Assembly: GCA_013180625.2 (NCBI GenBank)
Contig: SNVD02008183.1
Span: 62,001 to 126,000 of the forward strand
Direction of reading: 5' to 3'
From: Boswellia sacra
Lineage: Eukaryota; Streptophyta; Magnoliopsida; Sapindales; Burseraceae
DNA length: 64,000 bases
Shown here: positions 8,985 through 64,000 of the stretch, piece by piece
Layout: every line of letters begins with the position of its first letter
How positions within the stretch are numbered: position 1 is the stretch's first letter
Notes under the pieces: generated by a model
Databases searched by the model: none
Told to the model about the DNA's origin: nothing
The model's input: the letters and a program-made list of their open reading frames with translations, nothing else
Position numbers and translations under genes: made by a program

Positions 8985-8989
8985 GGAAG

Positions 8990-15405: not shown

Positions 15406-16268
15406 ATGTTCTTCTGCAACTCCAGGAAAAAAGAGCTGTAATTAAATTAAATTAAGGGTAAACCTCATCATCTTATCAATGATCACGCAGATTCGCAGAA
15501 GCAATTACAGAAATATTTCTAATAAACAAACTCATTATATTCATTCTATGTAGCGTAGTAGAATTCTAATTCCTAGTCCTAGTACAACAAGGAAAATTAC
15601 TTTCCAAATAATCAAAATAATCCTATTCTAGGAATCCACAAAAATAAGAAATCTCTTGAATTAAATAGGATACGATTTTTTTTTTCACAAAGATAAATTA
15701 AACTTGATTAACGTTTATACACATAAACATTAAAATTATAGCTTAATACGAAAAAAATGTTACAATTAACATGATTAGGTCTTGAAGGGTTAAAATTGAA
15801 AAGCCTTGAGGGGTTGAAAACAAGCATATACGTTTAATCATTTATACTTTAGTTCAGAAAACATATTTCTTTCCAGAAATCATGTAAAATCATAATCATG
15901 ATTAGAGTATATATAGATAATAAAAATTTAATAGACAAGCATGTTACACCAGTTAAAAAGTAAATATGTTTAATAGGTAGAAAATCGGAACAATACAATA
16001 TTTGTTAGTTTGGTAAATGTTCTGGTCAGTAGATGGTTTGATTCATATTATTTAATAATAAATAAATAAATAACACAACTGGAGTCATTTAACCAATTAA
16101 TTATATGAAAGGTAGTTTATCATTCAATGAAACAAAAGTTAATTAAGAACTTGAAGAAAGTTAAGGCGATAAACAATCGATATCCTCATGTATCATACAT
16201 TACTGACCCTAGCTACATTTGCATAAGATCTAACTATATAAGAAAAACATGCCGTTGACTCATATCCT

Positions 16269-31001: not shown

Positions 31002-31745
31002 ATGCTTAATTGTCATTCAGTCACCGGATCATCTTACACCCCTAAGCTGCTGTCAACCCCAAAACAAGCTCCACAGAGCTGGCTCATCCTCGTTTACCAA
31101 GCCAAAATAGCAGATTTGATCCGCAATGTAACAGTGACTTGGTGCAAGAACCTGAGCAACCATTCCCTTAGCATAAGCGTGGAGAACTCTTTTGATAATG
31201 AACATCATTGCACCTGGAACATTGATTTAAAGAAAAGCCAGTTCTGGAACAAAAAGGGTCTCAAAAACCTTGAAGTAGATGGTAAAAGAGTTTATTTTTA
31301 CTGGGATTTTCGGCAGGCCATATTCTCCAGCAGCCCTGCTCCGATCTCAGATTATTATGTTGCAATTGTGTATGAACAAGAGGTGGTCCTATTGCTTGGT
31401 GATCTTGAGCAAGCTGCATATAACAGAACCAGAAGAAAACCATCCTTGTTTGAGGCTACCTTGTTGTGCAAGAAAGAGAATGTGTATGGCAAAAATTTAT
31501 TCTGCACAAGAATGACATTGGGTGAGGAGAAACAAGAACATGATATCATCATTGAGAATGCTATATACGGCCCTAGTGATCCTGAAATGTGGATCAGCAT
31601 AGATGGGATTTTTACAATTCATATTCTGAATTTGCATTGGAGATTTAGAGGAAACGAAACGATATCCATAAATAACACATCGGTCCAAATTTACTGGGAC
31701 GTTCATGACTGGTTGTTCAACAAGTCTCCCTCAGAACATGCCTAA
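31002..31745 (+). CDS. DUF868 family protein
   Basis: Single-exon frame of 247 residues from the ATG at 31002 (MLNCHSVTGSSYTPKLL). It shows the layout of the plant DUF868 family: QSWLILVYQAKIADLIRNV (usual start of the domain), VTWCKNL near residue 45, NLEVDGKRVYFYWDFRQA, YYVAIVYEQEVVLLLGDLEQ in the middle, and MWISIDG with LHWRFRGNET near the end. Family members are usually about 280-320 residues, so this copy is somewhat short, mainly at the N-terminus. The family has no established biochemical role. No signal peptide or membrane segment is evident. Confidence 0.85.
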   Translation: MLNCHSVTGSSYTPKLLSTPKQAPQSWLILVYQAKIADLIRNVTVTWCKNLSNHSLSISVENSFDNEHHCTWNIDLKKSQFWNKKGLKNLEVDGKRVYFYWDFRQAIFSSSPAPISDYYVAIVYEQEVVLLLGDLEQAAYNRTRRKPSLFEATLLCKKENVYGKNLFCTRMTLGEEKQEHDIIIENAIYGPSDPEMWISIDGIFTIHILNLHWRFRGNETISINNTSVQIYWDVHDWLFNKSPSEHA

Positions 31746-37960: not shown

Positions 37961-40900
37961 CTATACTGAGTCATCAGAGAAGGCAAAAGAGCAGTTAGAA
38001 GATCCTTGTGAGACTACAATGCCGGGAGGAGGCAAGGAAGGAGGAGTTGATGACAAATTTCCTCCCTTTGTTATGTCAGTTTCTGCCCTGGTTGCCTCAA
38101 CATGTCGAATCTCCTTGAGCATTGCAACAACGTCCTTCATCATTGGACGATCATCTGCTCTTGTGCTGGTGCAGAGAAAGGATACAGCAAGTGTCTGTAG
38201 CATCTCATGCATTGTAGGGTCAGCTCTCCCTCTAAGCTTTGGATCAAGTATGTCAGCGGGGTCTCTCTTGCTGGCCAAGTGCTCTCTAACCCACTGAACC
38301 AAGTGTGCACCACCAGGCAAGGTTGGGTCTAATGGATGCCTTCCTGTTAAAACCTCCAAAAGTACCACCCCAAAACTGTACACATCGCTTTTCTCTGTGA
38401 TGCGCTGCATTGATGCATGCTCTGTGAACAATCCACAAAAATGAAACTAATTAGTGATATGGTAAAAAATGAATCTAAAATCTGGAATGAAAAAGCAATA
38501 AAAAAGTAAAATACCTGGAGCCATGTATCCATAAGAACCTGCTAAGTGAGGCCTTTGACTTGGTTTAGAAAAGCCATCATCGGTGTTGCTGTTGACAATT
38601 CTAGCTAGTCCAAAGTCAGCTAGGTAAGCCTGATAGCCAGGACCTAACAACACATTCATTGCTTTAACATCTCCATGCAATATAGCAGGAACACAATCAT
38701 GATGCAAGTATGAAAGCGCATGTGCTACACCCAAAACAACATCATATCTAGCATCCCAGTCAGCTCCTCCTTTGTTGCTTGCACCATGAAGCAGGGAGCT
38801 CAAGCTTCCATTAGGCACGTAGTCATAGAAAAGAAGTTTCAGGTTCTTGTTTGAACCCCAACCTAGAAGCCTGACAATGTTCTTATGCCTGATTGAACCA
38901 AGTGTCTGAATTTCAGAACTGAATGCCCCGGACTCCTCTGATGACCACATCTTCTTCACTGCTAGTGTCTCCCCATTTGGAACTGTCACTCTATACACCA
39001 CCCCAGAGCTTCCAGTGCCAATCACATTTGATGACGTTAGATTCCTCACAATGTCATCTATGGAGAAGTCAAGCTTCTGGTACAAAGTCATCTCCCAAAT
39101 GTCATCTTCCATGAACTTTTTGCTGGCCATTCTTGTACGAATCAAGAAGTAGATCGTTAATAGCACAAGTACTGCACTGCCACTAACAAGGACCGACATC
39201 ACTAGCTTCATTGCTGATCTAGCATGGCCTGCAGGTCCTAATCCATCTGTTGGAGCTAGAACCCCACTAGAGATGTAGAGACCTCGGTTGGAGGCAAGAT
39301 CACTAAGCGGGAGCTTTCGAAAGAATGGAGTGTCAGGCAATTCGCCTGAGAAGTCATTGAAGGAGACATTGAGGGAGACAAGGTTTTGCAGGCTTGCTAG
39401 AACATTTAAGTCCCCCGTTAGCTTGTTGTGGGAAAGGTCAAGTACTCCTAGCTTGCTGAGACCAGAGAATTCTGATGGGATCTCTCCTGTAAATTGGTTA
39501 CAGCTAAGATTGAGAGCCATTTCAAGTGCTGGAATTTGGCCCAGTTCCTTTGGAATTTCACCAAAGAAACCATTGTTACCGATGTCTAACAATATCAGCT
39601 TCCTGCAGGCCAGTATCTCTCCCGGAATTCCACCAGAGAGTTTATTCTTTCCCAGAAGAAGTTTGGTTAATTCTGTCAGCAAACCGATGCTATGAGTCAA
39701 TGGACCTGTAAGCCTGTTGTCTGAAAGGTCCACAAACTGTAGGCTTGTGGGCAGAGTATCAGGCACAGAACCAGTGAGCCCATTTGAATGAACATCAAGA
39801 AACTCGAGGTTTTGACATCCAAAAATTGATGGAGGAATTGCTCCAACAAGATGATTTTCACTCAAGTCAACAAAATTTAATCTCTTCAAGTTGCCAATCT
39901 CCGATGGAATAGTACCGCCTAGCTTATTGCCATTCAACCGCAGCCTACGCAAGGTGGTGCAGTTTCCTATATCCGGAGGTATGAAGCCGGATAAATCATT
40001 TGAAAGTAAAAGCAGCTTGGTGAGATTTCTTAATCCAAAAATCTCTTTTGGTATTGAACCAAAGAGGTTGTTGTAGGACAGGTCAAGAGCCTGAAGTTCC
40101 TGACACTGAGAAAGACTCTTCGGAATATTGCCTGCGAGCTTATTTTGCCAGGCGAAAAATAGAGTCAAGCTCTTTAGATTGCCAATGGCAACAGGAATCT
40201 CACCTGAAATTTCGTTGTTGTCTATTTCCAGATGAGTCAATCCTGTGCAGTTTGCAATTTCAATAGGTATGGTGCCTGACAACTGATTGACACTTAGCTG
40301 AAGCTCTTGAAGATTCATAAGGTTTCCAAAACTACTTGGTATGCTGCCGGTGAGAAGATTCTCCGAGAAATCTATTACTGCCAGCTCTGTGCAGCTTCCC
40401 AGTTCATCAGGAATTGTACCCACTATGCTGTTCTGCCACAAAAGTAAATTTTGAAGCTTTTTGAGCTCCCCAATTCGCTTTGGGACTGGTCCGGAGATGG
40501 AATTCTGATACAAGTACAGATTATGCAACTCACTGCAGTTCCCGATCTCTTCTGGGATGGGACCTGACAGTAATGATGTATAAATGGCTATGGTTTGAAT
40601 TCTTTTCAGCATTCCAATTGAGGAAGGAAGCCTTCCAGAAATGCCGGTTTCAGCAAGGCCTAGCATGACCAAGTTGGTGCAGTTTCCTATCTCCGTTGGC
40701 AGCTCACCCTTAAGATTTTGATTCCCTCCAGCTCGAAACACTTCTAGCTTGCTCAATGCTCCAACACTTTTCGGAATTTCTCCGCTTAGTTGATTGTCAT
40801 AGAGTGTCAGAGATACAAGACTTGATAAGTTTCCAATGCTGGAAGGAATTTCACCTTCAAGAAAGTTTGTGTTGAGATATAAACTTTGCAACTTTCTTAG

Positions 40901-41338
40901 CCAGCATATCTGCATTGGAATTTCACCTGAAAGAGAATTGCTACTGAGATCAATGAAAGTGAGCTCCTGATATTCTCCAAGTTCTTTCGGGATTGTGCCG
41001 GTGAGATTGCATGATGAGATGATAAGAGTCTTCAAGGACTTCAGAGACTGAAAATTTAAAGGCAGTGAACCCTGCAAATCTAACTCTTTCAGACTTATCT
41101 CTTCTACTTCTCCATTTGAGTTGCAATGGATCCCAAACCATTTGCATGGACTTCTGTCTGCAGGATTCCATGACTTCAACGCATCTGTGGAGCTGTTTAA
41201 ACTGTTCTTCCATGTTAAAAGAGCTTGGCTTTGTTCATCAATGGAATAACAGGTGGAGAAGAGAAGAGAGTTTATTAGGAGAAATGAGGTGAAGAAGATA
41301 TTTGGAAAAAGAAAGGGATGCCTTAGAGTTGCAGGCAT
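37961..41338 (-). CDS. RGI3: LRR receptor-like serine/threonine kinase, RGI3/RGI4 type (complete)
   Basis: Two exons (41338-38515 and 38421-37961) encode 1094 residues. Order: signal peptide (MPATLRHPFLFPNIFFTSFL, cleaved near CYS 32); N-terminal cap ALLTWKNSLN with SPCKWFGIHC; more than 20 LRRs (GNLSSLVSLTLYDNQLSGEI type); transmembrane helix ~709-731 (MSVLVSGSAVLVLLTIYFLI); kinase with GTGSSGVVYRV, AVKKMW, LHGDVKAMNVLL (~889) and LADFGLAR (~909). The catalytic loop is HGD, not HRD, as in this clade. The C-terminus SSNCSFAFSDDSV and the single intron at MAPE match Arabidopsis At4g26540/At5g56040 (receptors of root meristem growth factor-type peptides, LRR-XI). Exact orthology to RGI3 or RGI4 cannot be settled by eye. 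Two damaged copies lie downstream in the window. Confidence 0.93.
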
Positions 41339-43496
41339 TGCTTAGAGATGAGAACAGTTGATCTGTTTTGGGATTGTAGAGGGGGGAACCCCATGTTTTG
41401 TTTATAGAAGAAAAGCAGAAGATCTGGATCCAAGAGCACCTTCTTTTTTCTATTATTATTGTAATAGGTGCAGTTGTTTAATTGAGCCATGGTGATGCAG
41501 GTAGGTATTTAGTTTTATTTAAGTGAGTGGACTTTTTATGGGGTTGTTTTTTTAGTTTATTCCGTCAAAATTTTGGATTTTGCTTTCTGAAAGCATTTCT
41601 GCTTCTAACTTTCTCAACACAACTCAACACTAATTTTTACTATAAGTTAACTGTCATAAAAGGGAAATCTTGGTACTTGATACCATCTATAAATTATAAA
41701 TTATCCATTTTTTTAACTTACCCTTTTTAACAGTTTATTACTCTCTTGTATCCACTTTTTCTCGTCATTTTAGTTGTCACACTCAAAGAGAATTTCAAGT
41801 TGTCATAGTCAAGAGATAATAAGATTTTCCCCACCAAAATATTTCTATAGCTGAAATGATTATTGATTAACCAGCCCTAAAAAGAACTGATTAGATGAGA
41901 AGCATTATTGGCTTTATATCACTTAACAAGACATGCGATCAGATTGATGGATTATCTCTCAGACAGTGATAGCTTAATGATCAAACCAACCATATACAAC
42001 AGCCCAATTGAATGTTCCTAGTTCTTCTTTCGTATAATCTCAGTTGATCATCAAATCTTCTTTAATAATCCACGGACGACTGATCAGGTGGTCCATCAAT
42101 TTATGTGGTCACAATTTCTGAACCATCCATGTGTTTGTTATATGTATGCAATGTTCTCCATTATCTTTTCCAATCATTTAGGCAGCTAAATATATAGGAT
42201 TATGTCACATACATATTAGGCTTTAAACCCATATCTTTATTAAGTGCCACAAATTAAGGTGAAAATGCATTGTGGTAGACTTCAGAAACTTTTCACTGCA
42301 TGCTTATAAACAAGAGTCATTTTTTGCTGTGATTTTTTTTTTTCCTCTTGTAGTAGTATATGATTTAAAGATTTAATCTGTTTATCTTAGTGACAGCAAA
42401 TTCTTATGAATTTTTGGGATCTGGATTGGTTACTCTATGGAAGGAGCTGCATGGGTTGGTATGTTTAATGAATTGAATAAACCCAGAAAGAGATTTATCT
42501 CAAGGAATCTGATGAACTAGTGAAGTGCACATGAAAGTGAGGAATATGTTAAAATAAATTAAAGGGTTTTTTTTAAACTGCAAATCTGGTCATTCTGTCG
42601 GCTGGTCTTTGCTGTAAAGGACTAAAAGATAACACAGAAATGAACCATTGGCCTTGAGTGGAAGGGACAACATTACATCAACTTAAAAGAGTTGTTAATC
42701 AATATTGCTTACCCATCAAAGCTGAATTACCTGCACAAAACAAAAGATGGTTTATATTATAATTTTCTAGATGATGGGTCAGCTCAGCCAGCTCTCATGC
42801 CATTGCCTGCAGTCTAGCATTATTAGGTCACGGGACAGATTCCAAATATTCAAGTTTAGCACTTAAATGAGTTTTCTTGTTAAAGTTTTGTATATGTGAT
42901 AAAACCAGAATCTTTGATTCAACAGATGTATATGCATCCGATCAGAAATAAAATATCTCATCGGCGAACTTGATATAGACATTCTCTCTTACTAGGCAGA
43001 TCTACATGCATTAGTTGAACTCAATTTCTCTGGACCGTTAAAAGTGAGATTTGTATCAGCCGAAGTAAATTTCAATTAAATCAACAAACGAAGCCTGTAG
43101 TGACACAGACCATTCAAGGTTGTACAATTTAGTCTTCGTTCTTTGCTCCACTGAAGATTCCTGATCTTGATCACGAAATCTTTTTCATTTTGACTACGGA
43201 TTCTTGCCCTCAATCACATCGACATGATTTCACTGTAATTTGATGTTGGCATCAAATATATTTCATGATCAGAAATCATTCATCAATGGTCCCATGAGGA
43301 TCACTTACAGGAAGATAGTAATTGTTCTCAACAACCAAGATCTAAGTTTTTTAAGACACAGCATAAAATAGTTAAGTGAGATGGGGTTTGGATATGATAT
43401 AATTAATATCTCAAATTACCTAGTTTTTTTGGGGTTGTATGAAACCATTCAAGGGATTCCAAAAACAAATTGAAAACGAACTATAATATTATAAAA

Positions 43497-48895: not shown

Positions 48896-50065
48896 TTAGA
48901 CACGAATAGATTGAGGATTGACGCCCATTTGTTTAAGAACGTTAGAGCAGTCAGCATTGGCTTGCTTCTTCTTGAACCCAAGAGGATTGGCATGACGGAC
49001 GGCCTCGGTTACACCCACTTTGTTGGTGAGGAGTATCCTGGCGTAGGGGAGACTAAATTTCTCTGAACAATCAGAGTCGGGGCTGTCTTTTAGATGAACC
49101 TGGCAGATTTCACGCTCATGGTCACCCTCCACAGTGATGTTGTACAAACCCCTCTTGTCTGTCACAGCCTCTGTTGTGAATTTCACATCCCCGTCCTCTC
49201 TTTCTCTGCATTCCAGCACCGCCTTTACACCTAAACCAAACCCACCACAATCCATCATCAGGTTACCTCATCCCATGCGTCCATGCATGCATAATCTCTC
49301 AAGTTATTTGTAAGATATCATTATTAGAAAATAAATACTCAAGGTAATCCACGTCTAAAAATTTAAACTTTAAAAAAAATAATAAATTTAACATAGCATC
49401 AGAGCGAGAATGACAAAACAGTGCAGATTTAAATCAAGCTTTACACATGAGAAAATGTATTAGAGAATAAACACTTAAGCCCATATCTAAAAGTTTAAGT
49501 CTTTAAAAAAAGTGAAAAACTTAACAATATTTTATTATTCTATTTTGATTCCGAATATATACCTATTTCTTATCCTTTATTTTCGTTTTTCTAAAACTCG
49601 AATTGCTAATAAAAGTTGTATGTATGTAGCTAGAAAGTTGTTTCTATCTTTATAATACATATATACAGAACAGAATTCATCAATGAATAGAATTCCCACC
49701 TGCAATCTATTTGTTTATGTATTTAGAATTCTATTTTTTGTATTACATATTTTTAATCTATTTTAAATTCAATATTTGCAATATTTTTTTCCAAATTTTA
49801 ATACCAACCATATATTTTTAAATATTTTTTAAAACAAAACATTAAAATTATAAACAAATAGGGATAAGCAAGTTACATTTATTATACCTTCGAGGGGCTT
49901 GCTGAGTTTGGTCTCGAATTCGACACGGCAGGGGTCGCAGTAAGCCATGCCTTGAACATAGAATTTCTCATTGTTGCTAGTGGGATTGGCGGAGGAGAAG
50001 CTGAGGAGGGAAGAGAAGCAGAGAGCTGTGGTAACGAGACCAGCGACCTCAAAAACCATGGCCAT
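48896..50065 (-). CDS. pollen Ole e 1 / extensin family protein
   Basis: Two exons (50065-49888 and 49230-48896) join to 170 residues; the split falls inside KPLEG/V. A signal peptide (MAMVFEVAGLVTTALCFSSL ... SSA) is followed by the family signature FYVQGMAYCDPCRVEFETKL. Conserved cysteines follow in LECRERE, REICQVHL, SDCSEK and ADCSNV, and the family phrase RHANPLGFKKKQ lies near the C-terminus. These are secreted six-cysteine proteins of pollen and other tissues, thought to act in the cell wall; the molecular role is not established. The length (~170) is normal for the family. The start is the first of two in-frame ATGs (MAM). Confidence 0.9.
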
Positions 50066-50438: not shown

Positions 50439-51662
50439 CTATGTTGATATTGGACCAAAGAGGCCATTGTAAGACAGATTAAGATACCAAAGTTCCTGAC
50501 ACTGAGAAAGACTCTCTGGAATATTTCCTGTTAGCTTATTTTTCGCGGCATCAAATTCAGTCAAGCTCTTCAAGTTGCCAATCTCCCCCGGAATAGTACC
50601 GGATAAATTATTGGATTTTAAGAACAGTTGGGTGAGATTTCTCAATGCAAAAATCTCTTTAGGTATTGGACCAAAGAGGTTATTATAACTCAGGTCAAGA
50701 GCCTCTAGTTTCTGACACTGAGAAAGACTCTCTGGAATTGTACCCACTAAGCTGTTCTCCCACAAGAATAAAGTTTGGAGCTTGCTGAGCTTCCCAATTC
50801 GCTTCGGAATTGGTCCGGCGATTGAGTTCTGATACAAGGCCAGAATCTGCAACTCGCTGCAGTTCCCAATCTCTTCTGGGATGGCACCTGACAGTCGTGA
50901 TCTATAAAAGACAATGCTTTGAATTCTCTTCAGCATTCCAATTGACCGAGGAAGACTTCCAGCAATGCTGGTTGCAGCAAGGCCTAACCAAACCAAATCG
51001 GTGCAGTTTCCTATCTCTATTGGCAGCTCACCCTTGAGATCTTGATTCCCGCCTGCTCGAAACACTTGTAGCTTGTTTAACGCTCCAATACTTTTAGGAA
51101 TTTTTCCGCTTAGTCGATTGCTGTAGAGTATCAGATTTAAAAGACTTGAAACATTTCCAATGCCAGAAGGAATTTCACCTTCAAGAAAGTTATCCTGTAG
51201 ATATAAACTTTGCAATTTGCTTAGCCTACATATCTCCTCTGGGATTTCACCTGAAAGAGAATTGTTACTGAGATCAATGAAAGCGAGCTCGCGATATTCG
51301 CCAAGTTCTTCTGGAATAGTGCCTGTGAGATTGCATGAAGAGATGATAAGGGTCTTCAAGGACTTCAGAGGTTGAAAATTTGAAGGGAATGAACCCTGCA
51401 AATATAATGCTTTGAGACTTATCTCTACTACTTCTCCATTCGAATTGCAGTGGATCCCAAACCATTTGCATGGACTTTTGTCTGCAGGATTCCATGACTT
51501 CAATGCATCTTTGGAGTTCTTTAAGCAGTTCTTCCACGTTAAAAGTGCTTGGCCTTGTTCATCAAGGGAATAACAAGTAGAGAAGAGGAGATAATTCACT
51601 ATGAGAAATGAGTTGTAGAAGATATTTGGAAAAAGAAAGAGATGCCTTAGAGTTGCAGACAT
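50439..51662 (-). CDS. truncated RGI-type receptor copy: secreted LRR ectodomain only
   Basis: An open single-exon frame of 407 residues closely matches the first part of the receptor at 38-41 kb: signal peptide MSATLRHLFLFPNIFYNSFL, cap ALLTWKNCLK with SPCKWFGIHCNSNGE, then about a dozen LRRs. Relative to the full receptor, a block of LRRs after LVGTIP is missing. The motif ESLSQCQ-L-LSYN-LFGPI occurs twice, which suggests unequal recombination between repeats. The frame ends at LSYNGLFGPIST with a stop; the remaining LRRs, membrane helix and kinase are absent, and the downstream DNA is unrelated. It may be a pseudogene, or it may make a soluble LRR protein. No stop or frameshift interrupts it. 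Confidence 0.75.
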   Translation of the reverse strand: MSATLRHLFLFPNIFYNSFLIVNYLLFSTCYSLDEQGQALLTWKNCLKNSKDALKSWNPADKSPCKWFGIHCNSNGEVVEISLKALYLQGSFPSNFQPLKSLKTLIISSCNLTGTIPEELGEYRELAFIDLSNNSLSGEIPEEICRLSKLQSLYLQDNFLEGEIPSGIGNVSSLLNLILYSNRLSGKIPKSIGALNKLQVFRAGGNQDLKGELPIEIGNCTDLVWLGLAATSIAGSLPRSIGMLKRIQSIVFYRSRLSGAIPEEIGNCSELQILALYQNSIAGPIPKRIGKLSKLQTLFLWENSLVGTIPESLSQCQKLEALDLSYNNLFGPIPKEIFALRNLTQLFLKSNNLSGTIPGEIGNLKSLTEFDAAKNKLTGNIPESLSQCQELWYLNLSYNGLFGPIST

Positions 51663-52310
51663 TGCTTAGAGATCGATGCCAACATAGTCTATCCGTTCTG
51701 GGATAACTTAAATGATAAAACCAACCAAACACAACAACCCATTGAATATATTCTTGTCTTCTTTCATATAATAATCCAAGGACGGAGGTAGTGGTCAATT
51801 TCATTAATTGGGTTTGCGAAAGGGTCAAGAGTTGATGAACATTTTCGCGCAAGGAAAAGAAAAAAAAAGGGGTTGGTTGCTTGTGGCTGCTAAGAATAGT
51901 CAATTCATGACGGCATAATAAGAAACTGTTCATATTTTCTCATAGATTCTATACATGTATAATGTGGGAGCCATGTTTACAATTAATATGATATTCCTAT
52001 AATAAACTCAACTATTCAAGCCTGAGACTAGCACTTGTCTTGAAGGTGAAGTTTTCATAGGGCCAAGGATGAGGTTGCAATTGTAACAGAGTTGTATGCA
52101 TAAAGAATTTTGATTAGGTGAAATTCAATGAATCATATGCATTTGATAATATAAATTCTAAAATGATATTGTGAACGTGATTTTAAGAGTTTTGATTACC
52201 TTAACTTTTGTTAATTTCAATGATTTGAGAAAATAGTTCAAGATTGAGAAGGTTTCATTCCCTTCGAAAGAAGAGGAAAAAAATTCTATCGAGAACCATG
52301 AGAAACAAAT
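51663..52310. other. 5' flank of the truncated receptor copy
   Basis: The first ~150 bp (to about 51810) resembles the receptor upstream block at 41960-42110 and the end-of-window block at 63400-63560 (phrases AACACAACA and GTGGTCAATTT). The rest has no gene. Confidence 0.5.
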
Positions 52311-52393
52311 AAGCTGCTCCGTCAAAGTTTTGGCTTAGGGGAGGGGCTCTTTTGTTCCTTTGAACGAAATGAAGTAACCTTACACCAACAGCT
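52311..52393. repeat. 85-bp dispersed repeat, copy B
   Basis: 83 bp nearly identical to 47546-47630. It ends within a few bases of where receptor homology starts on the minus strand, so it marks the breakpoint that truncated the third receptor copy. Confidence 0.85.
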
Positions 52394-52397
52394 TATA

Positions 52398-52776
52398 TTA
52401 ACGCTCCAATACTTTTAGGAATTTTTCCGCCTGTTGAGTATCAGAAATGTAAGACTTGAAAAGTTTCGTATGCCAGAAGGAATTTCACCTTCAAGAAAGT
52501 TTTCTTCTAGATATAAACGCTGCAATTTGCTTGGCCTACATATCTCCTCTGGGATTTCACCTGAAAGAGAACTGTCAATGAGATCAATGAAAGTAAGCTC
52601 GAGATATTCGCCAAGTTCTCTTTGAATAGTGACTGTGAGATTGCATGAAGAGATGATAAGGGCCTTCAAGGACTTCAGAATTTGAAAATTTGAAGGGTAT
52701 GAACCCTCCATTTGAATTACAGTAGTGGATCCCAAACCATTTGCATGGACTTTTATCTGCAGGATTCCATGACTTT
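52398..52776 (-). pseudogene. third receptor copy, LRR fragment (3' piece)
   Basis: Minus-strand homology to residues ~50-200 of the receptor: a region coding SYPSNFQILKSLKALIISSC, LEGEIPSGIRNFSS and neighbouring LRRs. It has small indels (a ~13-bp deletion near 52430 relative to copy 2), and GIHCNSNGE is damaged. It ends on the right at the Copia insertion, where the receptor DNA continues at 63225. All downstream LRRs, the membrane helix and the kinase are missing. Confidence 0.85.
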
Positions 52777-53351
52777 TAATATTATGAAACCAAGGATATT
52801 TCCAACCAATTTCACCCAAGAGTCAAGCAATAACAAAGCACAATAGAGGTTTTAATTAAGGCAAGCAAACAAAAGCAATAATAAACACAATAGATAACAC
52901 CAAAATTTAAGTGGTTTGGTTCAAGGAGAACCTATATCTACTTGGAAGGCTGTAGAAGAATTTCACCATAAAAAAAATGGATTACAAGGTGTTACAATAT
53001 CTCTCTTACTAGAATCACTCCCTTCTTAGCCTTACACATTTCCTAGAAACCCTACAAAAGAATATTCATAAGTTCTCGCTCAAAAAGAAAAGAAAGTCTT
53101 TAAATAGTGTCCTGGTCATGAACAGTAACCACCATTTGCACAATGGCATAATGTGCTTTGCGCTGGAGTGCAAGGTCTTTGCCTGAAGATGAAACGTCTT
53201 TTTCCCGTTGTTGCATAACGACTCAACTCACCTTATGCAGAAGTGCAACATCTCTATCACATTGTGCAGGAGCGTAGTCCTTCTTGTGTAGGAGTGCGAG
53301 TCCCTACGTCTAATACCAAATTCAGCTAAGATTTGTAAGCCAAAACTAACA
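52777..53351 (-). repeat. Copia 3' LTR
   Basis: About 575 bp matching 62650-63224 along its whole length with many substitutions. It ends ...AACTAACA on the plus strand (TGTTAG on the minus), next to a purine-rich CCAAGATGGAAATT that serves as the polypurine tract. The divergence between the two LTRs indicates an old insertion. Confidence 0.88.
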
Positions 53352-53759
53352 AATTTCCATCTTGGATCTCAAATCCTCTATCTCCATAACACACTACAGT
53401 CTTCCTTCAATAGAACTCATCAAGGAATCTTATCCTAGACCTTTAACAGATCTAGACAATGCAAGAACTTACTTAATGGTACTACATTCGTAGTAATATT
53501 AGTAGGATTACCTTTCGTAGAAATCTTCTCCATTTTTATATGCCATTTCGCTATAACATCACGAACAAAATGCAACTTTACATCAATATGCTTAGTACGT
53601 TCATGATACAATATGATTCTTCGTCATATATATAGCACTATGACTATCAAAAAACACAGTCATAGACTTTTGTAACACTTCAAGTTTAGCTACCAAACCC
53701 ATTAACCATAAAGCTTCATTTGTAGCTTTAGTAACAGCTATATATTCAGACTCTGTAGT

Positions 53760-54824
53760 TGATAAAGCAACAATGGACTATAACTGAGCTTTTCAACTAA
53801 CACATCTTCCATTAAATGTGAACACATAGCCCGTTTGAGACTTTCTTTTATCAAGATCCCCTGCATGATCTATATCAACAAAACACCTCAAAACTATTCT
53901 TTCTTGTTCTATTTTACTAAACATCAATCCTCTACTGAATGATCCTTTCAAGTATCTCAGCAACCATTTTATTGCTTCACAATGAACCTTTCCTGTATTC
54001 GTCACAAACCTACTAACAACTGATACAGCCTGTACAATATCTGGACGAATACACACCATCAAGTACATGACACTCTCTATTGCGTTCGCATATGAAATCT
54101 TATACATTTGAAGTTTCTCCTAATCTATCTTGGGACACAACTCAGATAAGGGTCTAAAATATGCTACCAATGGTACACTAACAACCTTGCACCACTCATG
54201 TTAAACTGATGCAAGACATTTTCAAAATAGTTTTTCTGAGATAAAAAGAGTATACCTTTGTCTCTGTCTTTGTGAATGTCTATCCCCAATATCATCTTGC
54301 TACAAACTCAGTTTGTAGCAACTCCTTCAAATTTTGGATTTTTAAGATTGTCTTACTGGCTATGAGCATATCATTAACATACAAGAGCAAGTAGACCATA
54401 TCCAGACATGTGGTTCTCCTATAATAAACACAACTATCATAGGAACTCATTGAGAACCTTTACTCACTATAAATGCATCAAACCGTAGATATCATTATCT
54501 TGGACTTTGCTTCAAATCATACAATGATTTCCTCAATAAGCAAACATAATGTTCTTTAGCTAGAAGCTCAGATCCCTCAGGCTGGCTAATGTAGATCTTC
54601 TCTTCTAACTCACCATGCAAGAATATAGTTTTGACATCCATTTGCTCAAGCCTAAGATCAAAACAATCCCCTCATGCTGTGTAAACCCCTTAGCCACTAA
54701 CCTCACCTTGTATCTAGGCTTCTCACTTGACAACCGTTCCTTTCGTTTCAATATCCATTTACAACCAACAAGCTTTTGTTTTTCAAGCTTCTCTACAATC
54801 TACCATATCTTATTCTTATTTAAA
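53760..54824 (-). pseudogene. Copia pol: reverse transcriptase (C-terminal part) and RNase H, decayed
   Basis: A minus-strand frame at 54107-53793 reads YANAIESVMYLMVCIRPDI, VSVVSRFVTNTGK, WLLRYLKG and DIDHAGDLDKRKSQTGYVF, the usual Copia RNase H neighbourhood. Further right are pieces coding KPRYKVRLVAKGFTQ and GCKWILKRKE from reverse transcriptase. Stops separate the pieces. The right edge is the CACTA insertion point. Confidence 0.85.
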
Positions 54825-55538
54825 CACTACAAGAATTTTTTAAATATTTGTCACTTTACAATTTTTTTATTTAACGGTTTTAAAAAAAAGTGAGAAATAT
54901 AACACTGATCTAGAAGTCAAACCTGCATTTTCCTCATATTTGTCACTCTTTTTTATACTTTATTATATATTTATCATATTTTTAGATAGTGACAAGCATG
55001 CACAGAAATATAATAATATATAAATTTTTAAAATAAATAAAATTTAATTAATTTTTTATAAAATAAGAAATAAATTTTAATTCATTGGTAAATATAAATT
55101 TTTAAACAAAATTTTAAAGAAATAAATAAAATAATATAAAAATTTAGAAGTTAAGAAAATGAATTAATTATTTATTTATTTAAAAAATTTATGAATTAGG
55201 AATATATAAAAATCATTGTTAAATAATATAATTTTATATTTAAAAAGTTACTCATCAAAATTTAAAATTAAAAAAGTAATAAAGTAAAAATTAATAAAGA
55301 AATTGTACATCCAAAACTATGTCGTTTTGGTTGAAAGTAGGGCAAAATAAAAAATGAAGATCATGTTCTTTTTCTTATTGATTGCCGCCACTACCACCTC
55401 CATCAATTTCTTCCATTCCACCAACACCACCATAGCGCCAACACTGCCATAGCCTAGGGTTTCCAGTCCTGTCAGTTGGGGCATCAACTATCGTTTGGGC
55501 ACCTTGCGTCTATCACCACATCGCCAACTACAATCGCC

Positions 55539-56091
55539 ATGCCCAGCCCCAAGTCATCAAACACCCAACCTAGATTAGCCGCGTTTTCAACTCCGGTGGG
55601 CAAGGAGGTCAACGATGGGAACTCGTTGGGCGTTCTTAATAATCATCGGCGAAAAAGAAGAAAGATGGTGAAAGTGTCAACGTTCTTCGCAATGTCACTG
55701 GGAGCCTTCATCTTCTGGCATTCCATGGACAAACTCCACGTCTGGATCGCTTTCCATCAAGATGAAAAGGTCTAATCTTTTATCTCTCAAAACGATAATC
55801 ACTCACAATCTCAGATTCTCATAACTGTTTGTTACAGTTGATATTAACATCTTTCCCTGAACTTTACTTTCCTGTTTGATTTTGTGCCATATCATTTTCC
55901 AATTAGGTCGAAACCCTAGAATTTCTAATGTAAATTTTTGGTTGGTTTCTAATTGATGATCTTAGCAACGAGAATAATGTAGGAGTTGGTTGGTTTTGAT
56001 GTGTCAGAAAGAAAGGATGGAAAGAGAAGAGGAGATCAAGAGAGTAAGAGAAGAGATGCTTCGACAAAGGAATTACAAGGATGCCCTGTAG
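55539..56091 (+). CDS. captured small membrane-protein gene, two exons, intact frame
   Basis: Exon 1 runs to 55769 (donor AAAAG/GTCTAA) and exon 2 is 56008-56091 (acceptor GTGTCAG). From the ATG at 55665 the product is 62 residues: MVKVSTFFAMSLGAFIFWHS, MDKLHVWIAFHQDEK, then KERMEREEEIKRVREEML and RQRNYKDAL. That is one membrane-type segment and a charged helix. An in-frame ATG at 55539 would add 42 residues. The shorter form looks like a small conserved plant protein of unknown function, from memory and unverified. It lies wholly inside the CACTA element and keeps an intron, so it was captured at the DNA level. Confidence 0.55.
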
Positions 56092-56534
56092 TTCGATTCT
56101 TATTGTTTCTGTTTTTATTTCCGGTTATTGAATTGTTGGTTGGTTGATTTTGTTATAAGCATGATGTATACTGTAAGTTCATGCCATGAATTTTATGAAC
56201 GTTGATGAAAATGGAATTTGTGCTTTAATTTGCGCTTTAATTTGCTTTTTGTTTTGCTAATGAGTTAATGCTCTTACTGCCATTTGGTTTGTGTCTCTTT
56301 TTTTATAAATGAGGAGCGACATTGCTCAGTTCACCTTATAGATGTTTTCTGAATTGTTGCTGATGTAGACACTTCTTTTTTCTAGCATAAAATGTGAATT
56401 GCTCATGTGAGACCGTATGTGCTGTTTGATTGTGTGTCTTTCATTCACCATTGTCGACTACCTTTCCATTCTCATTGCCGTCTGTTTTTAATCAAAATCT
56501 AATTCTGATTTCATGTTTATTGTATCCAACCAAG

Positions 56535-56666
56535 GTTATGTTGAAGGCCGAGCAGTTGAAAGAACAAAAGAAGGAAGCAGAGGCAGTGATCATAGGAGGC
56601 ATGGTGTTGGACATTCATGCCACTCCATCTGCGCCTGCAAACCCAAGAACCTCTACTCCTGGCAAG
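56535..56666 (+). pseudogene. captured exon of a pfkB/pseudouridine-kinase-like gene
   Basis: Bounded by CCAACCAAG/GTT and GGCAAG/GTCCGT, an exon-like open stretch ends in EAVIIGGMVLDIHATPSAPA and NPRTSTPGK. The IGGMVLDI and ATPS-NP-T-TPGK phrase is the start of the pfkB carbohydrate-kinase domain as found in plant pseudouridine kinases. The remainder of that gene is not seen here. The first part (VMLKAEQLKEQKKE) may belong to another source. Confidence 0.6.
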
Positions 56667-56842
56667 GTCCGTTTGAACCCTTTTTTTTTCTCTTGAAGTT
56701 TTTATTTGTCTTTTGATTATGTTTTGAAATAAGAGAAAATATATAATTTAGTAAACAACATATGGCTTTTGATTGCTCTCATTGCTTATAGAAGGAACAT
56801 AAATCAATTTCAGATTTTCAATTACATAGTTTATTTCGAGAA

Positions 56843-56898
56843 TTCTTCACTATGCAAACTCAGTCCTCCATTCTTCACTATACAAACTCAGTCCTCCA
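56843..56898. repeat. 28-bp tandem duplication
   Basis: TTCTTCACTATGCAAACTCA, followed by GTCCTCCA, is repeated directly with one base changed (56843-56870, 56871-56898), inside the CACTA element. Confidence 0.9.
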
Positions 56899-57709
56899 AC
56901 TTCTTAGGTGTGTATTACATTAGATCTTTAAGTTTCTTGAAGATTTTTATTTTTTCTTTTAAATTTTCTGGGTAGGAATTGTAGGGACTATATGCTTTTC
57001 TTGTATTAAATTGCTGGAGTTTCAACATTCTCTACATGTTTTAAGTAGAACACTCATAAAAGTCTGACTTAATCACCTCACTTTCTGATGTGAGATAGTA
57101 GACTTCGCATCAGTTATCAGCAACCCTCTTTAGACAAATATTCTAGCTGCCCAATTTTCCTATATCTTTTCAAGGTTGGGAAACTAAAGAAGTTTGTTCC
57201 CGATCGCCAAATCCAGTTGTCAAATCCAAATAACTTTCTGATTATTATACGACCAATCAAAATCACTCCCGTTCATACAGGCAAAAAAGCGTCCCCACCT
57301 CCAATTTTATTCTGCTAAAACCAATTGGAGGGCAGCCTGGCTGAAGTTAGCTTTCTCCTTCCAATCTTTTTATTTATGCAGATATATAAACATAGACCAT
57401 GTTAAATGCGTTTCCAAAATGCCCATGTCAGCTTTTGTGAATAGTAATCGCATTATTGACCTTGATGCATCAAATTTGTTTAAAATCGATGAATCTTGTG
57501 TTACTTATATGGGTAAGACTTGAGAGAATTGCAACAAATTATAAATCAGAAATAATTATTAGATGTCAAATCGATTTCCAGTTATACCCTTCATGTGAAC
57601 TATCCTTTTCCCAATACGATGAGGCACTTAATGTACATAATCTTCACAGAGATCTAGCTAAGAAAAAGCTCATTCCTTTGCTTTTCCCCTGCACTAAAAA
57701 TTGGAGAGG

Positions 57710-58250
57710 ATGGTCTCTTCATTGGCTAATCTTCTCTTCATTGCAGCACTAATGGCTGCTTGTTATTCTTCATCTAAAGCAGCTGACTCAAAAGGATCTT
57801 TTGAAGATAACTTCAGTATAATGTGGTCTGAAGATCATTTTAAAACTTCTGAAGATGGGCAGATCTGGTATCTCTCTTTAGACAAAGATACAAGTATGCA
57901 TAAGCAATATTCATGAGCAATGCATATTTTAATCTGTTTTTCTTCATATACATATATATTTATTTCTTGAAGAAATTTTGACTAGGCTGTGGATTTCAAA
58001 CCAAGCAGAGATACAAATTTGGATGGTTCAGCATGAAATTGAAGTTGGTTGGAGGTGATTCAGCTGGTGTAGTCACAGCTTATTATGTAAGCTCTTGTTT
58101 CTGTTAGAAGTAAAAAATCAATGAGGCTACAATAATGTTATAATGTCTTGAGAAACTGTTTCATTTGGTCGCCATTCGCAATGAAGTTGCTAAATTAACC
58201 TGAATTTGTTGCAGATGTGTACAGAGAATGGGGCGGGGCTAACAAGACAA
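57710..58250 (+). pseudogene. captured xyloglucan endotransglucosylase/hydrolase (XTH) fragment
   Basis: Three exons in correct order and phase: 57710-57893 (signal peptide MVSSLANLLFIAALMAACYS, then FEDNFSIMWSEDHFKTSEDG and WYLSLDKDT), 57986-58086 ([33 protein letters not shown]) and the start of exon 3 at 58215 (MCTENGAGLTR). Homology stops there, before the catalytic DEIDFEFLG motif. The family would continue, but the sequence switches to kinase-derived DNA and meets TGA. The fragment cannot be an active enzyme. Confidence 0.85.
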
Positions 58251-59150
58251 CAACTTCTTCCCCAATGAGAAGCCAATGTACTTAGCGCAGGTTTAGTTGC
58301 TGACAGTAACTTCTTATATTACTAGCATCGGCATGGTATCATGCCATATTTCAGAATCACATACCAATTGATGTATTAATTCACAGGTTTCCATGGTTTC
58401 GAGGTTGAAGCATGAAAACTTTGTTCAATTGCTTGGTTACTGTGTCGATGGAGCTTAAGTTTTTGGGTTGCATTTCGTTATTCTATAACTTCCATGGATC
58501 ATTTATATGGCAGATTTGTCTGGAGATTTGCTATGAACCTAGTACCACAACTTGTGGACACAGGTAAAGCCAGCAATTTCTATTGCTTACACGAATTTCT
58601 TTTCTTTTTTTGTTTTTGCCAATTATGGCCACAAAAATAGATGGAGTTAACGTCTGATTTTTCCTCTACTTTTTTATTTTTTGTTTATATCTGTTTTACA
58701 ACTAGTATTTCTATTTGTTTGTAGTTTTTATAAGAAATGTTTGCGATCTGCTGCTGATAAATGTGGAAGTGCCCAAAGTGCAAACAATTAATAATGTAAA
58801 TTACTCATCCAAATATTCAAGCTGATTAGCTATTTCAATTGCAAGGTGTTCTGTTATTGTAATACATTTGCTTGATTTGCATCAATGGAAGATCTTGTAC
58901 CGTGGACACTGTTCTTTGAAACACTATACAGCTTTTGTTTCCCCTAGAGATTGGAGTAAGAAAGGCTGCTGCAGCAACCTTAAATTGTAAAGAAGCTGAG
59001 CATCATCAAAACCCACAAAGAGTGATCCATAATAATGTGAGGACAAGCAGTATAAGAGCTTTGGTGGTATCAATCAGCGATAAAAGTATGAGGAGAAGGG
59101 AGATACCAAGCCAACAGGAGGATTCTGCATTTTTTTTTAACTTGAGATCA
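58251..59150 (+). pseudogene. captured PTI1-like protein-kinase fragments, joined to the XTH piece
   Basis: Directly after the XTH break comes an exon end coding YLAQ (to 58290, donor CAG/GTTTAG). After an intron, the exon from 58388 codes VSMVSRLKHENFVQLLGYCV and DG. This is the phrase of PTI1-like cytoplasmic kinases around the alphaC helix. A frameshift follows, but the next ~60 bases still resemble the VLAYEFA-MGSLHDILHGR part in another frame. A weaker stretch near 58950-59060 (RVIHNNVRTSS) recalls the catalytic-loop exon. No functional kinase can be made. Confidence 0.6.
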
Positions 59151-59429
59151 CCCATTATAGTATTGCTTTCCCCTTTTGTAACTTGAGATCTAGTATATTT
59201 TTTATTTTTATTTTTGAAATTATTATACTTGGTAGCCAAAAACTGCTAAGTATTTTTTTTTTAATTTTTAAACGTATTATATTTGGCGGTAAAAAACCGT
59301 CAAGTATAGTCAGATCCATATTTGGTATTTTGACTGACTGCCAAATATAGTCAATTTTGACTATATTTGACGGTGCCATTGGTGGCGCTTTTAAGACCGT
59401 CAAATATGATCATTTTTCTTGTAGTGAAA

Positions 59430-60735
59430 GAATTAATCCCATCTAACATTACCTCTTTTCATTAGACGGATTCATCACAACTCACGGCCTTAAGGTGTGT
59501 AAGTGGCTCATTCCCATCAATCACATCAGCCGTATACAAAGCATAAGTCACAAAGTCAGAATACCCATACCTTTTTGAAAGTTTGATCTGCCTCCTTTCT
59601 CTGCCCCTCGCTAGTCTATAATTAGGCTGTGGTATTTTTTGTTGTTTATCCTTGGGTAAGGTGCATCCTTAATTACTTGCTGACGAACAATGCTTACATG
59701 CTCCATCTCAAAACCAACAGTCTGTAACCTTAAACCAGTTGCCTCATATTTGCCTAACCTAGAAACTCCAACATGTTGCACTGTCAATCCCAGAATTTCA
59801 TCTTTATTAAAGACAACATCTCAACTAACAATCGTTTTGATACTCCTTAGGCCTTATGCCACAATCTATAGCCTTTTATACTTTCGAGGTAACCAACAAA
59901 GATACATTTCAATGCTCTAGGCTCTAACTTCCTATCATTCACGTGTGCATATGCTGTACAGCCAAACACTCTTAAGTTTCTCAGGTGTTTTACAATTAAT
60001 GGTTGTAGAAGGTCTTTTATTCAATAAATAAATTGTAGTACTCACATTTTCAATCTAGAACTCTTTTCCGAATCCTATATTAAAAAGTGTACACCTAACT
60101 TGTTGTACCAAAGTCCATTCATTCTCTTAGCTAAGCCATTTTGTTTGGGGTATGCCCAACTATTTTATGTCTCACAATGTTATGTTCTTTATAATAATAA
60201 TCAAACTCATGATTACAAAACTCAAGCCCATTATCGGTCCTAATTCTTTTTACACTTTTACCAGTCTGAGTTTCTGCGAGCGTTTTTCACCGTCTAAACT
60301 TTTCAAAAGCTTTATTATTATGTTTCAACAAGTAAATCTACACCTTCCTAGAATAATCATCAACTAAGGACAAGAAATACTTGTTATCACCATATGAAGG
60401 CTTGCTAGTTGGACCCCAGAGATCTGAATGCACATAATCAAAAGTACCATTTGTAATATGAACACCCATTGAGGAACTTAGCCGATATTACTTCCCAAAG
60501 GCACAGTGCTCGCAAAACTCAAGTTTACCTACTTTATCACCATACAATAACCATTGACTGCTCAGTTCTTTCAAACCTCTCTCACTGATGTGATCAAGCC
60601 TTTGATGCCAAAGCTTAGTTTTATCCTTATCAGATACTTCTTCTACTGCTAGTTCTTTAGTTAAAACCTTCTTTTCAACACATACAAGTCATTGTGAATC
60701 TTAGCTATCATGACAACTAGTACTCTCTTTGTCAT
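59430..60735 (-). pseudogene. Copia pol: integrase and start of reverse transcriptase, decayed
   Basis: Minus-strand pieces code for HSDLWGPTSKPSYGDNKYF (~60430), LVDDYSR, KRIRTDNGLEF (~60240), and upstream LWHQRLDHISERGLKEL (~60600) from the GAG-pre-integrase region. The integrase DDE positions are partly readable, but in-frame stops follow (for example near 60127). Confidence 0.85.
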
Positions 60736-61460
60736 TAGGGATGGCAAAAAATCCGAAGGATGCAAGTACCCGGTTTTTAGCCAGATTTTTCGGATGAAAT
60801 TTTATTTGTATTTGCAGGGATACAATACGGAGGCGATGATGAAATTGGTTTTAAAATCCAGGTGTGGTATTTACCATCCTCGTACCACACCTGCAGCGGA
60901 TAATTTTAAAAATAAAAATATATATATAATTTTATATGTAATATTATATTATTACACTTCTAGGATACTAGGACTTTCATTGAATCACTTGAATTTATGA
61001 TTTTGTAATGAGAATTTGGATTTTGGATTTTGGATTTTTGTATGTAAGATGTATACTAATATTTGTATTGTATTGTAGTAATGAGCTTTTGTTTTGAATA
61101 TTTGTACAGAACTTCATTTGTGTATTTGTATTGTTATGAGCCTCGATTTCTCTATTTGTATTGTAATAGGCCTAATGGGGGGCTTGGTACTTGGTAGCAA
61201 GCATTTTTTGCTTTAATATGAATTGAAATAGAGTAAAGTTACAAAATATAGCATGTAGAATCACAAGACCGGAGAATTTGTGGGGATTAAATCGGGGTAA
61301 AATACGAGGTAGGGAGGGGATATACAAATCCAGGGAAAACTGCATCCACATCGTACAAAGAAAACCCGGGAAAAATTCTATGATCGTGGGCGACCTTACA
61401 TCATTCGGTCCAAGTGTAAAAATGCAAAACCCGCACCCACACCCGATTTTGCCATCCCTA
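60736..61460. mobile_element. hAT-like non-autonomous element inside the Copia element
   Basis: A 725-bp insertion with terminal inverted repeats TAGGGATGGCAAAA ... TTTTGCCATCCCTA. It is flanked by TTTGTCAT (60728-60735) and TTTGTTAC (61461-61468), an 8-bp target duplication with two differences, as expected of hAT elements. The interior is rich in CCCG/CGGGT phrases typical of this plant family and has no transposase frame. Its removal rejoins Copia homology. Confidence 0.85.
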
Positions 61461-61468
61461 TTTGTTAC

Positions 61469-62640
61469 ATGTAACATCCTAGAGGACATCTTCTATTCAC
61501 AACCCGTTTTATCCAATGTGCCCAAGGAAATCAAGTTTCTTTTTAACCCAGGAACATGCCTTACTTCTTTTAATATTCTGATAGACCATCAAACATCCTA
61601 AATATGAGACAACCGATTCCCACCGTATCACAAGCTACATTATGCCTCGTCAAAACTTTTTCCCTATCAACAAATTGATATGAAGCAAAAAAAATTAGGA
61701 CACATGTGGAATGTACAACTTAAATTGAGAGTCCACTCACCATCAGATCTCATGTCTGACATTGTGAAAACCTGTACACCTTCATAATTAAATGTTGATG
61801 CCATAGTTGCATCACCATACTCAACTCCATTCTCATTTTTGTTCTTCTAATCAGGACAGTTATGCCTAAAGTGACCCTTCTTCTTACAGTGATAGCATTT
61901 CTTCTCTTGCTTGAATTTAGACTTCGATCTTGACTTGTCATTACCTTTTTACTCTCTCTTCTCGGATCTACCTCTCACTGCCAAACCCTTTTCATTATTT
62001 TTGGTCTTTCTCTCAATTCTAATTTCAAACTCCCTAGATCTCAGAGCTCCAAGTATATTATCCAAATCAAAACTATCTCTAGCATATTTAATAGCAGATT
62101 TAACCTCTCTGAAATTATCTAGTAGAAAGTTTAAGAGTATAACTACCTGGTTTTATTATTAATCTTCTCATCGATATTAGCAAGGTCAACCACAATCTTT
62201 TAAAGTCATCAAAATTATCTTTTAGTGCCTTAGATGGGTCCATCTTGAACCCAAACAATTGCTCTTTAAGATAAATCTTATTAGACAAAGATTTAGTCAT
62301 ATACAAAGATTCAAGTTTTAGCCAAACCTTTTGTCACATTATCATTTCCATCGATTTGTCATAGAACATTATCTGTCAGGTAGAGTATCAGAGTGCTATA
62401 GGCTGTCTCAATTATCTCATCTTTCTCCTGCTCAGGCAGATTTTCTTTAAGGGTAGTTTTACCTTTAAAAGCTTTCGCACGCTTCTACTGCAAGAGAATT
62501 GCCATTATCTTCTTCTTCCAAAGACCGAAATCACCCTTGCCATCAAACTTCTCTATTTTAAACTTTGTTCCAACCATTGCTTCTCATTTAGGAATTTTCA
62601 TGAACAGGTTGTATGTAGAAACAAGCCAAAAACCAAGGTC
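61469..62640 (-). pseudogene. Copia gag and protease region, decayed
   Basis: On the minus strand this stretch contains the zinc knuckle KKCYHCKKKGHFRHNC (~61900-61862) after a lysine-rich part. Upstream gag-like pieces lie near 62115-62306 (KIYLKEQLFGFKMDPSKAL). Frames are broken by stops. It adjoins the primer-binding site and the right LTR. Confidence 0.75.
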
Positions 62641-62649
62641 TGATACCAG

Positions 62650-63224
62650 ATTATTGTGAAATCAATGATCTTTGCCAACCAATTCCACCCAAGAGTCAAG
62701 CAATAACAAAGCACAATAGAGATTTAAATCAAGGCTAGCAAACAAATAAGTAATAATAAACACAGGGGACAACACCAAAACTTAAATGGTTCAGTTCAAG
62801 GAACATCCACTGGTAAAACTGCAGAAGAATTTCACTATGAAGAAATACGGATTACAAGGTATCACAATACTTTCTCTTACTAAGAATCGCTTCCTTCTTA
62901 GCCCTACACGTTTTCCTAGAAACCTTACAAGAGAATATTTAGAAATTCTCTCTCAAAAAGAAAAGAAAGTCTTTAAATAGTGTTCTAGTCATGAACAGTA
63001 ATAGCCATTTGCGCAACGGCACAATATGTCTTGTGAAGGAGCGTAAGGTCTCTACCTGAAGACGAAGTGTCTTGTCCCTGTCATTGCATAGTTGTGCAAC
63101 TCAACTTGCGTAGGAGCGCAACATTTCTGCCAGGTTGCATAAGAGTGCAATCCTTATTGTGCAAGAACACAAGTCTCTAGATCTGAAACCAAATTCAACT
63201 ATGATTTATAAGCCAAAACTAACA
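62650..63224 (-). repeat. Copia 5' LTR
   Basis: About 575 bp and the partner of 52777-53351. It ends ...AACTAACA on the plus strand, followed by the ACTTT target duplication. The left edge borders the primer-binding complement. Confidence 0.88.
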
Positions 63225-63229
63225 ACTTT

Positions 63230-63393
63230 AATGCATATTTGGAGGCTTTTAAGCTGGCCTTCCACGTTTAAAGTGCTTGGCCTTGTTCGTCAAGGGAATA
63301 ACAAGTAGAGAAGAGGAGATAATATTCACTATGAGAAATGAGGTGTAGAAGATATTTGGAAAAAAGAAAGAGATGCCTTAGAGTTGCAGACTT
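63230..63393 (-). pseudogene. third receptor copy, signal-peptide region (5' piece)
   Basis: Continues the receptor fragment at 52398-52776 on the other side of the Copia element. The minus strand matches the receptor from the signal peptide (SATLRHLFLF) to LTWK-type sequence. The position of the start codon (63393-63391) reads AAG, so initiation is lost, and small indels break the frame after the hydrophobic stretch. The ~300 bp beyond it match the receptor's 5' flank. Confidence 0.85.
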
Positions 63394-64000
63394 TACTTAG
63401 ATCGATGACAACAATTTATCCGTTTTGGGGCAACTTAATGGTCAAGGTCAAACGAACTAAACACAACAGTCCCATTTGAATGTATTTTAGTCTTCTATCC
63501 CATAATCAGACTTTATCATCAAGTCATCGATCTTAAATAGTCCAAAGACTGGGGTGGTGGTCAATTTAATTCATTATTTGGTGAACCATGCGTTATCGCA
63601 TTTGCTGTACGACGTGTCTCCAATATTATCTTTTCAATACTGTAAGGACCTAACATTTGTTACTGCTCTTTCAAATACGTATTTGGTTTAAATTCATTAT
63701 TATTGAGTGCCACAAATCAAGGTGAAAACTGAAAAGCAACAAATCATTGTTATATTCCTTGATTAATGTTAAGACCACAATATAAAGCTTATATATTTAT
63801 ACGAGAAAAGTTTTCTTAATTACCATCCTGGCAACCGCGTTGGTAACAATATTAATCAAATTAAAAGATGTGGGTCTAGACTTTGACCAACAACATTCAA
63901 AGTCAAGCCAATAGATTAGATATTAATTTCCGCATTGTAAAAGAGTTTGTGCAGGGTTCTAGTATTAAACAAAGAAATGAAGGCCTTAAACAGGCAAGAA
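63394..64000. other. duplicated receptor 5' flank, then unannotated sequence
   Basis: From about 63430 to 63735 the sequence follows the receptor upstream region 41960-42280 (phrases ACTTAATGGTCAA, AACACAACAGTCCCA, GAGTGCCACAAAT and AAGGTGAAAA). The remainder to the window end has no recognisable feature. Confidence 0.6.

Follow-up and report, generated by a model that had tools for sequence, protein, structure and literature searches.

Gene capture is a known habit of CACTA transposons, and the Tpn1 family of morning glory, which we take to consist of CACTA elements with captured host-gene pieces, is in this respect like the element described here, a Pack-CACTA element that lies within a 64,000-nucleotide stretch of Boswellia sacra contig SNVD02008183.1 (the whole analyzed stretch is referred to as the window). 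Among described systems, Tgm-Express1 of the soybean wp allele is likewise a CACTA element, 5.7 kb long, that holds exons together with introns from five host genes unrelated to one another. Its chimeric splicing was published in 2007, with twelve alternatively spliced transcripts reported; every transcript that was isolated began at the surrounding gene's promoter (PMC1947982). The five genes in the B. sacra element are different ones in a different host, and the element lies in an old copia retrotransposon, whereas Tgm-Express1 is inserted in the second intron of an active gene (PMC1947982). Arabidopsis Pack-CACTA elements, in the sections of the reports cited, are non-autonomous and share with our element the CACTACAA terminal repeats and captured coding DNA (PMC8903248, PMC13317346); the present element differs in its five gene pieces and its host plant. 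It is a clear new example and not a new kind. A gene-name literature search found no paper on this set of five genes, a result that says nothing beyond the literature covered, and a new gene set is expected in every Pack-CACTA element.

Both ends of the element and both flanks can be read directly in the sequence, and the interval between them is well bordered. The initial annotation of this DNA had proposed CACTA ends, borders and a 3-bp AAA duplication, and all of these are present as it gave them. The 11-bp end CACTACAAGAA has two mismatch-free occurrences in the window, one on each strand (54825 and 59426), and no further exact copy was found elsewhere in the 64 kb on either strand. Under a first-order Markov model of the window, chance would provide about 0.023 and 0.025 exact 11-mers, and about 4e-6 inward-facing pairs that lie no more than 20 kb apart and have a common 3-bp flank. 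All six window matches to ATATTTG[AGT]C[AG][CG]T, a motif picked post hoc once the ends were known, fall inside about 150 bp of the element's two ends. These subterminal repeats are unlike between the sides, being of the TCACT type on the left and of the CGGT/CAGT type on the right. Terminal repeats that start with CACTA, a 3-bp duplication and clustered subterminal repeats place the element in the CACTA (En/Spm) superfamily, for which the cited portion of a further report gives a target-site duplication of 3 bp (PMC8978399). For a rice and maize element set, 5 nt is the length given (PMC8903248); the AAA here does not extend to 5 bp.

As expected for a Pack-TYPE element, no transposase coding was found and host protein-coding gene DNA from five families lies inside. 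A Pfam scan of the 15 open frames of at least 69 codons within the element (out of 25 of at least 50 codons, the longest having 105) returned no transposase match in any of them, in line with the transposase-less state proposed earlier. Because terminal repeats, a 3-bp duplication and exons with introns of several host genes occur together with no transposase found, we file the interval as a real Pack-CACTA element, and the initial annotation is supported in this interpretation. We put at roughly 93% the probability that it is a non-autonomous Pack-CACTA element whose five host-gene segments were gathered as DNA, introns included, that it inserted into an old copia element, and that it is now, most likely, a decaying passenger.

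Five host genes are represented in the element (Table 1). All pieces are on the plus strand with their introns kept, and whole introns with GT..AG borders are found in four of the five. The single orientation and the introns had been recognized before, as had a complete two-exon small gene, a pfkB-like exon, three XTH exons and kinase exons; each of these is present on the plus strand with introns, the third XTH exon being cut after about 24 nt. The earlier count of four captured genes has to be raised to five, as a RING E3 ligase piece from 58514 to about 59129 had gone unlisted.

The first captured gene is a complete frame of 62 codons with one GT..AG intron, and it is the sole intact native frame among the pieces. 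All 61 candidate relatives pass an E value of 1e-3, every row with an organism label is from a flowering plant, and the annotations are solely hypothetical, uncharacterized, unnamed, transmembrane or coiled-coil. The top named matches are scattered (Lonicera, Macadamia, Juglans and Rhodamnia, then Citrus); among the five small proteins examined, a YKDAL stretch is shared solely by the two from Citrus and an unnamed one. Upstream of the small gene and in frame with it, an open frame at 55458-55664 (+) has an extra ATG and no Pfam match, and could be a leader or a sixth captured piece. The second gene is represented by a single pseudouridine kinase exon. The family call rests on the 103 of 114 candidates that qualified as relatives (best E value 9.3e-11), and the match to the pseudouridine kinase structure PDB 7c1x is weak (E = 0.017). 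Its top named relatives are from Dipteronia and Xanthoceras, followed by Rhododendron. Downstream of this exon, positions 56842-56897 hold a 28-bp tandem duplication with one difference.

The third piece is the 5' portion of an XTH gene (PDB 1umz, E = 1.8e-16; Glyco_hydro_16, E = 6.9e-14, profile positions 1-66 of 175), which presumably ends ahead of the catalytic residues, going by the usual XTH motif. The fourth covers about 27 codons matching the kinase PDB 5xd6 (E = 4.7e-8), the match starting at MYLAQ; this 32-aa piece has no Pfam match at 0.01, its identity comes from the PDB comparison, and PTI1-like may be a name for it. For the fifth, the RING E3 ligase, 290 of 554 candidates passed the search, 120 of them being listed; the total does not stand for RING proteins alone, because the region queried included the pfkB piece as well. 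Among the matches listed, the best is from Melia azedarach (E = 2.9e-36), the best three named relatives are from Melia, Acer and Citrus, and PF00097 is present in 120 of 120. The spliced RING stretch is above the Pfam cut-off for zf-C3HC4 and zf-RING_UBOX. Melia, Acer and Citrus belong to the Sapindales, as do Dipteronia and Xanthoceras, and a host from this order is likely. GCAT precedes the third RING exon at the place where an AG acceptor is expected, suggesting that the acceptor is missing. With five pieces and some joins placed within tens of bases, the element would, once sister copies are at hand, be a good case for the order and mode in which CACTA elements gather genes. It is also a likely annotation trap, as automatic pipelines could call parts of it as XTH, kinase or RING genes.

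Table 1. Positions in the window of the Pack-CACTA element, its captured gene pieces and the retrotransposon that hosts it.
Feature	Position	Strand	Remarks
Whole Pack-CACTA element	54825..59426	+	4,602 bp
Left terminal inverted repeat, CACTACAAGAA	54825..54835	+	Exact, 11 bp
Right terminal inverted repeat	59416..59426	-	CACTACAAGAA on the minus strand; element end is TTCTTGTAGTG
Target-site duplication AAA, left copy	54822..54824	none	
Target-site duplication AAA, right copy	59427..59429	none	
Left subterminal repeats, ATATTTGTCACT type	54844..54947		2 copies
Right subterminal repeats, ATATTTG(A/G)C(G/A)GT type	59279..59407	both orientations	4 copies
Captured gene 1, exon 1, small conserved plant protein (62 aa total)	55665..55769	+	Start codon to GT donor
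Captured gene 1, exon 2	56008..56091	+	AG acceptor to stop codon
Captured gene 2, one pseudouridine kinase (pfkB family) exon	56535..56666	+	tblastn, relatives
Captured gene 3, exon 1, XTH	57710..57893	+	Start codon, leader and first GH16 part
Captured gene 3, exon 2, XTH	57986..58086	+	
Captured gene 3, exon 3, XTH	58215..58238	+	First codons of the exon; end point by eye
Captured gene 4, plant receptor-like kinase, exon end	58276..58290	+	Start maybe earlier, after 58238
Captured gene 4, next exon (part), VSMVSRLKHENFVQLLGYCVDGA	58387..58454	+	
Captured gene 5, C3HC4 RING E3 ligase, exon with first RING half	58514..58563	+	tblastn
Captured gene 5, next RING exon	58725..58795	+	Cys-to-Tyr at conserved RING Cys; frameshift
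Captured gene 5, downstream exon	58884..59129	+	Stop where natives have Trp
Host of the insertion, old Ty1/copia retrotransposon	52780..63229	-	LTR-like repeats and domain matches

The CACTA element is situated between the integrase part and the reverse-transcriptase part of the copia element. Pfam identifies RVT_2 below the insertion (E = 6.6e-13, with a second match, 7.9e-6, that misses the cut-off). Above the insertion are gag_pre-integrs (E = 1.6e-14) and, likewise short of the cut-off, a weak match to the integrase core rve (E = 0.0026). The long terminal repeat (LTR)-like repeats, at 52780-53356 and 62652-63229, are 79.9% identical over 582 aligned bases, with 87 transitions and 30 transversions (Kimura two-parameter distance, K2P, 0.243), and on these values the copia element is old; the CACTA insertion is younger than it. 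When the flanks are joined without the element and with a single AAA, one minus-strand frame reads INSLNKNKIW*IVEKLEKQKLVGCKWILKRKE, a peptide that we take to resemble the usual approach to a copia reverse transcriptase. Inspection by eye for a clean target-site duplication of the copia element and for precise LTR ends found neither with certainty.

The copia element in turn appears to split a copy of a leucine-rich repeat (LRR) kinase gene, as 51070-51500 matches 52390-52775 and 51497-51772 matches 63225-63506. The two parts of this copy that flank the copia element (52390-52775 and 63225-63506, minus strand) were placed by DNA similarity alone. The minus-strand frames 38450-41341 and 50442-51665 are LRR proteins, the former also with a kinase domain. 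The locus thus has the appearance of a three-level nest, with the CACTA element in a copia element and the copia element in a gene copy of the LRR receptor-kinase type.

As a measure of decay, we compared the residues of the captured pieces with those of their native relatives at the protein level. The RING piece is clearly decayed, the small gene gives a hint of decay, and none was seen in the pfkB exon. The RING copy, compared with 27 of the 120 listed matches (P0063 excluded), has the lowest mean identity, 0.681 against 0.705-0.802 for the 27 natives. Tyr replaces a conserved RING Cys, the frame shifts after KCG, as is also evident from the change of frame in the tblastn placement, and a stop stands for the Trp of VLWNTIQ. 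The small protein was compared with 49 of its 61 matches, those of at most 66 aa among the first 54 rows; at two positions where each of the 49 natives has Leu, it carries Phe and Met instead, and it has three residues unseen in any of them (native median 0; one native has 5). The XTH and kinase pieces are nothing more than gene fragments. In all, four of the five captured genes are present as fragments that could not yield the original protein, and the element today is most likely a decaying passenger.

Several observations weigh against parts of the preferred explanation. The mean identity of the small protein, 0.729, is inside the native range, with 5 of 49 natives lower, and the pfkB exon, for which all 103 matches were taken, is ordinary at the protein level (core mean identity 0.839, the panel median being 0.840, with 50 of 104 rows scoring below the exon) and shows no decay there. 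The AAA that flanks both sides is weak as a duplication, the DNA being AT-rich. The joined copia frame contains stops, one in the peptide given above and two a few codons earlier. Finally, the length of the element is a multiple of 3 and the joined frame is open with either AAA count, so the joined open frame alone is no proof of a duplication.

The kept introns argue for capture at the DNA level, in which segments of five host genes would have been collected with their introns included. Most likely this would have occurred stepwise, with neighbouring elements re-mobilised together with the DNA between them. In a published model, as laid out in the passages cited, adjacent elements with compatible ends are mobilised along with the intervening DNA (PMC8903248, PMC13317346). 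The unlike left and right ends fit this joint mobilisation without proving it. They also fit either ends from different copies or plain drift, and can be counted in favor of an alternative in which a CACTA element lost its transposase and received the pieces by nested insertions or non-homologous repair, gathering not being by transposition. We consider this alternative unlikely: the XTH and kinase pieces are at most 37 bp apart and the kinase and RING exons at most 59 bp, leaving little space for an intervening transposon, and Pfam found no transposase remnant in frames of at least 69 codons. Under the preferred reading of capture by transposition, movement of the element would have depended on an autonomous CACTA relative acting in trans, since the element's ends keep the terminal and subterminal repeats needed by a CACTA transposase, and at some time it would have jumped into the old copia element.

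We enumerated 121 exon combinations for chimeric frames. The phases of small-gene exon 1, the pfkB exon and the first RING exon agree, allowing in-frame joining, and a 159-aa frame starts at the in-frame ATG upstream of small-gene exon 1 and continues through this exon, the pfkB exon and the first two RING exons. XTH exons 1-2 join the kinase exon in frame to give 118 aa. The longest chimeric frame, of 177 aa, was not relied on, as the third RING exon starts in it without an AG acceptor. If transcribed, the element could yield chimeric RNAs from its splice sites. By analogy with what the cited part of the Tgm-Express1 report describes (PMC1947982), the element today may at most feed splice-ready exons into such RNA. 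Transcription from outside is less likely here, as the old copia element around it runs in the opposite direction. There is a slim chance that the element carried along a complete copy of the conserved 62-aa small gene, which may include the upstream side, and that this copy is translated to this day. A chimeric variant, with exon 1 joined by in-frame splicing to the pseudouridine-kinase and RING exons, might then exist beside it. A translated small gene of this kind, with or without the chimera, would be a transposon-made gene in the making.

That small-gene exon 1, in frame with the pseudouridine-kinase and RING exons, forms an expressed and selected chimeric gene is highly improbable. The agreement of exon phases and the 159 aa reached with the second RING exon favor it, but phase-0 introns are the commonest kind of intron, making this agreement weak evidence. 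Chimeric transcripts of such a sort are known for Tgm-Express1, according to the portion of the report cited (PMC1947982), but here the RING half is without a conserved Cys and is itself interrupted by a frameshift and a stop codon, and in the small protein the two positions with Leu in all 49 natives compared are altered.

In other plants, relatives of the small gene, the RING gene and the pseudouridine kinase are separate proteins. In Citrus x aurantiifolia (tags AB3S75), the small-gene relative is on a 38.46-Mb contig and the RING relative on a 41.23-Mb contig. One Carya assembly has a small-gene relative, I3842_10G111900 (partial, 44% of the query), and a RING relative, I3842_04G032700, on differing contigs, which by tag convention we take to be chromosomes 10 and 4. 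The initial annotation had named side-by-side occurrence of the pieces at a normal locus in related species as the sign of an ordinary gene cluster. Such a cluster is contradicted in part, by the different contigs of these relatives of two of the five donors and by the position of the element inside copia; as far as tested, the pieces do not appear to form one. A cluster of ordinary genes or pseudogenes with a chance pair of CACTA ends would suit the single orientation and the kept intron borders of the five pieces, but it is hardly credible given the chance expectation for the inward pair with its shared flank, the clustering of the (post hoc) subterminal motif at the ends, the copia sequence flanking exactly the two borders, and the separate contigs of the donor relatives.

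Weak Pfam matches to CIS_spike_tip, PIN_12, NigD_N, Mlo, Integrin_A_Ig_3, PH_met_RdRP, ATP-synt_10 and DsbD_N, families with no relation to the captured genes and all below the cut-off, were dismissed as chance. Elsewhere in the window, an F-box gene family is present at 1279-2631 (+), 5492-6742 (-) and 16272-17408 (-), with similar DNA at 7969-8990 and 14245-15612; the DNA matches among copies are about 64-73% identical, and the two minus-strand genes carry F-box associated domains. A frame at 30882-31742 (+) belongs to a DUF868 plant gene (E = 6.4e-83), and 48899-49267 (-) encodes a Pollen Ole e 1-like domain (E = 4.5e-10).

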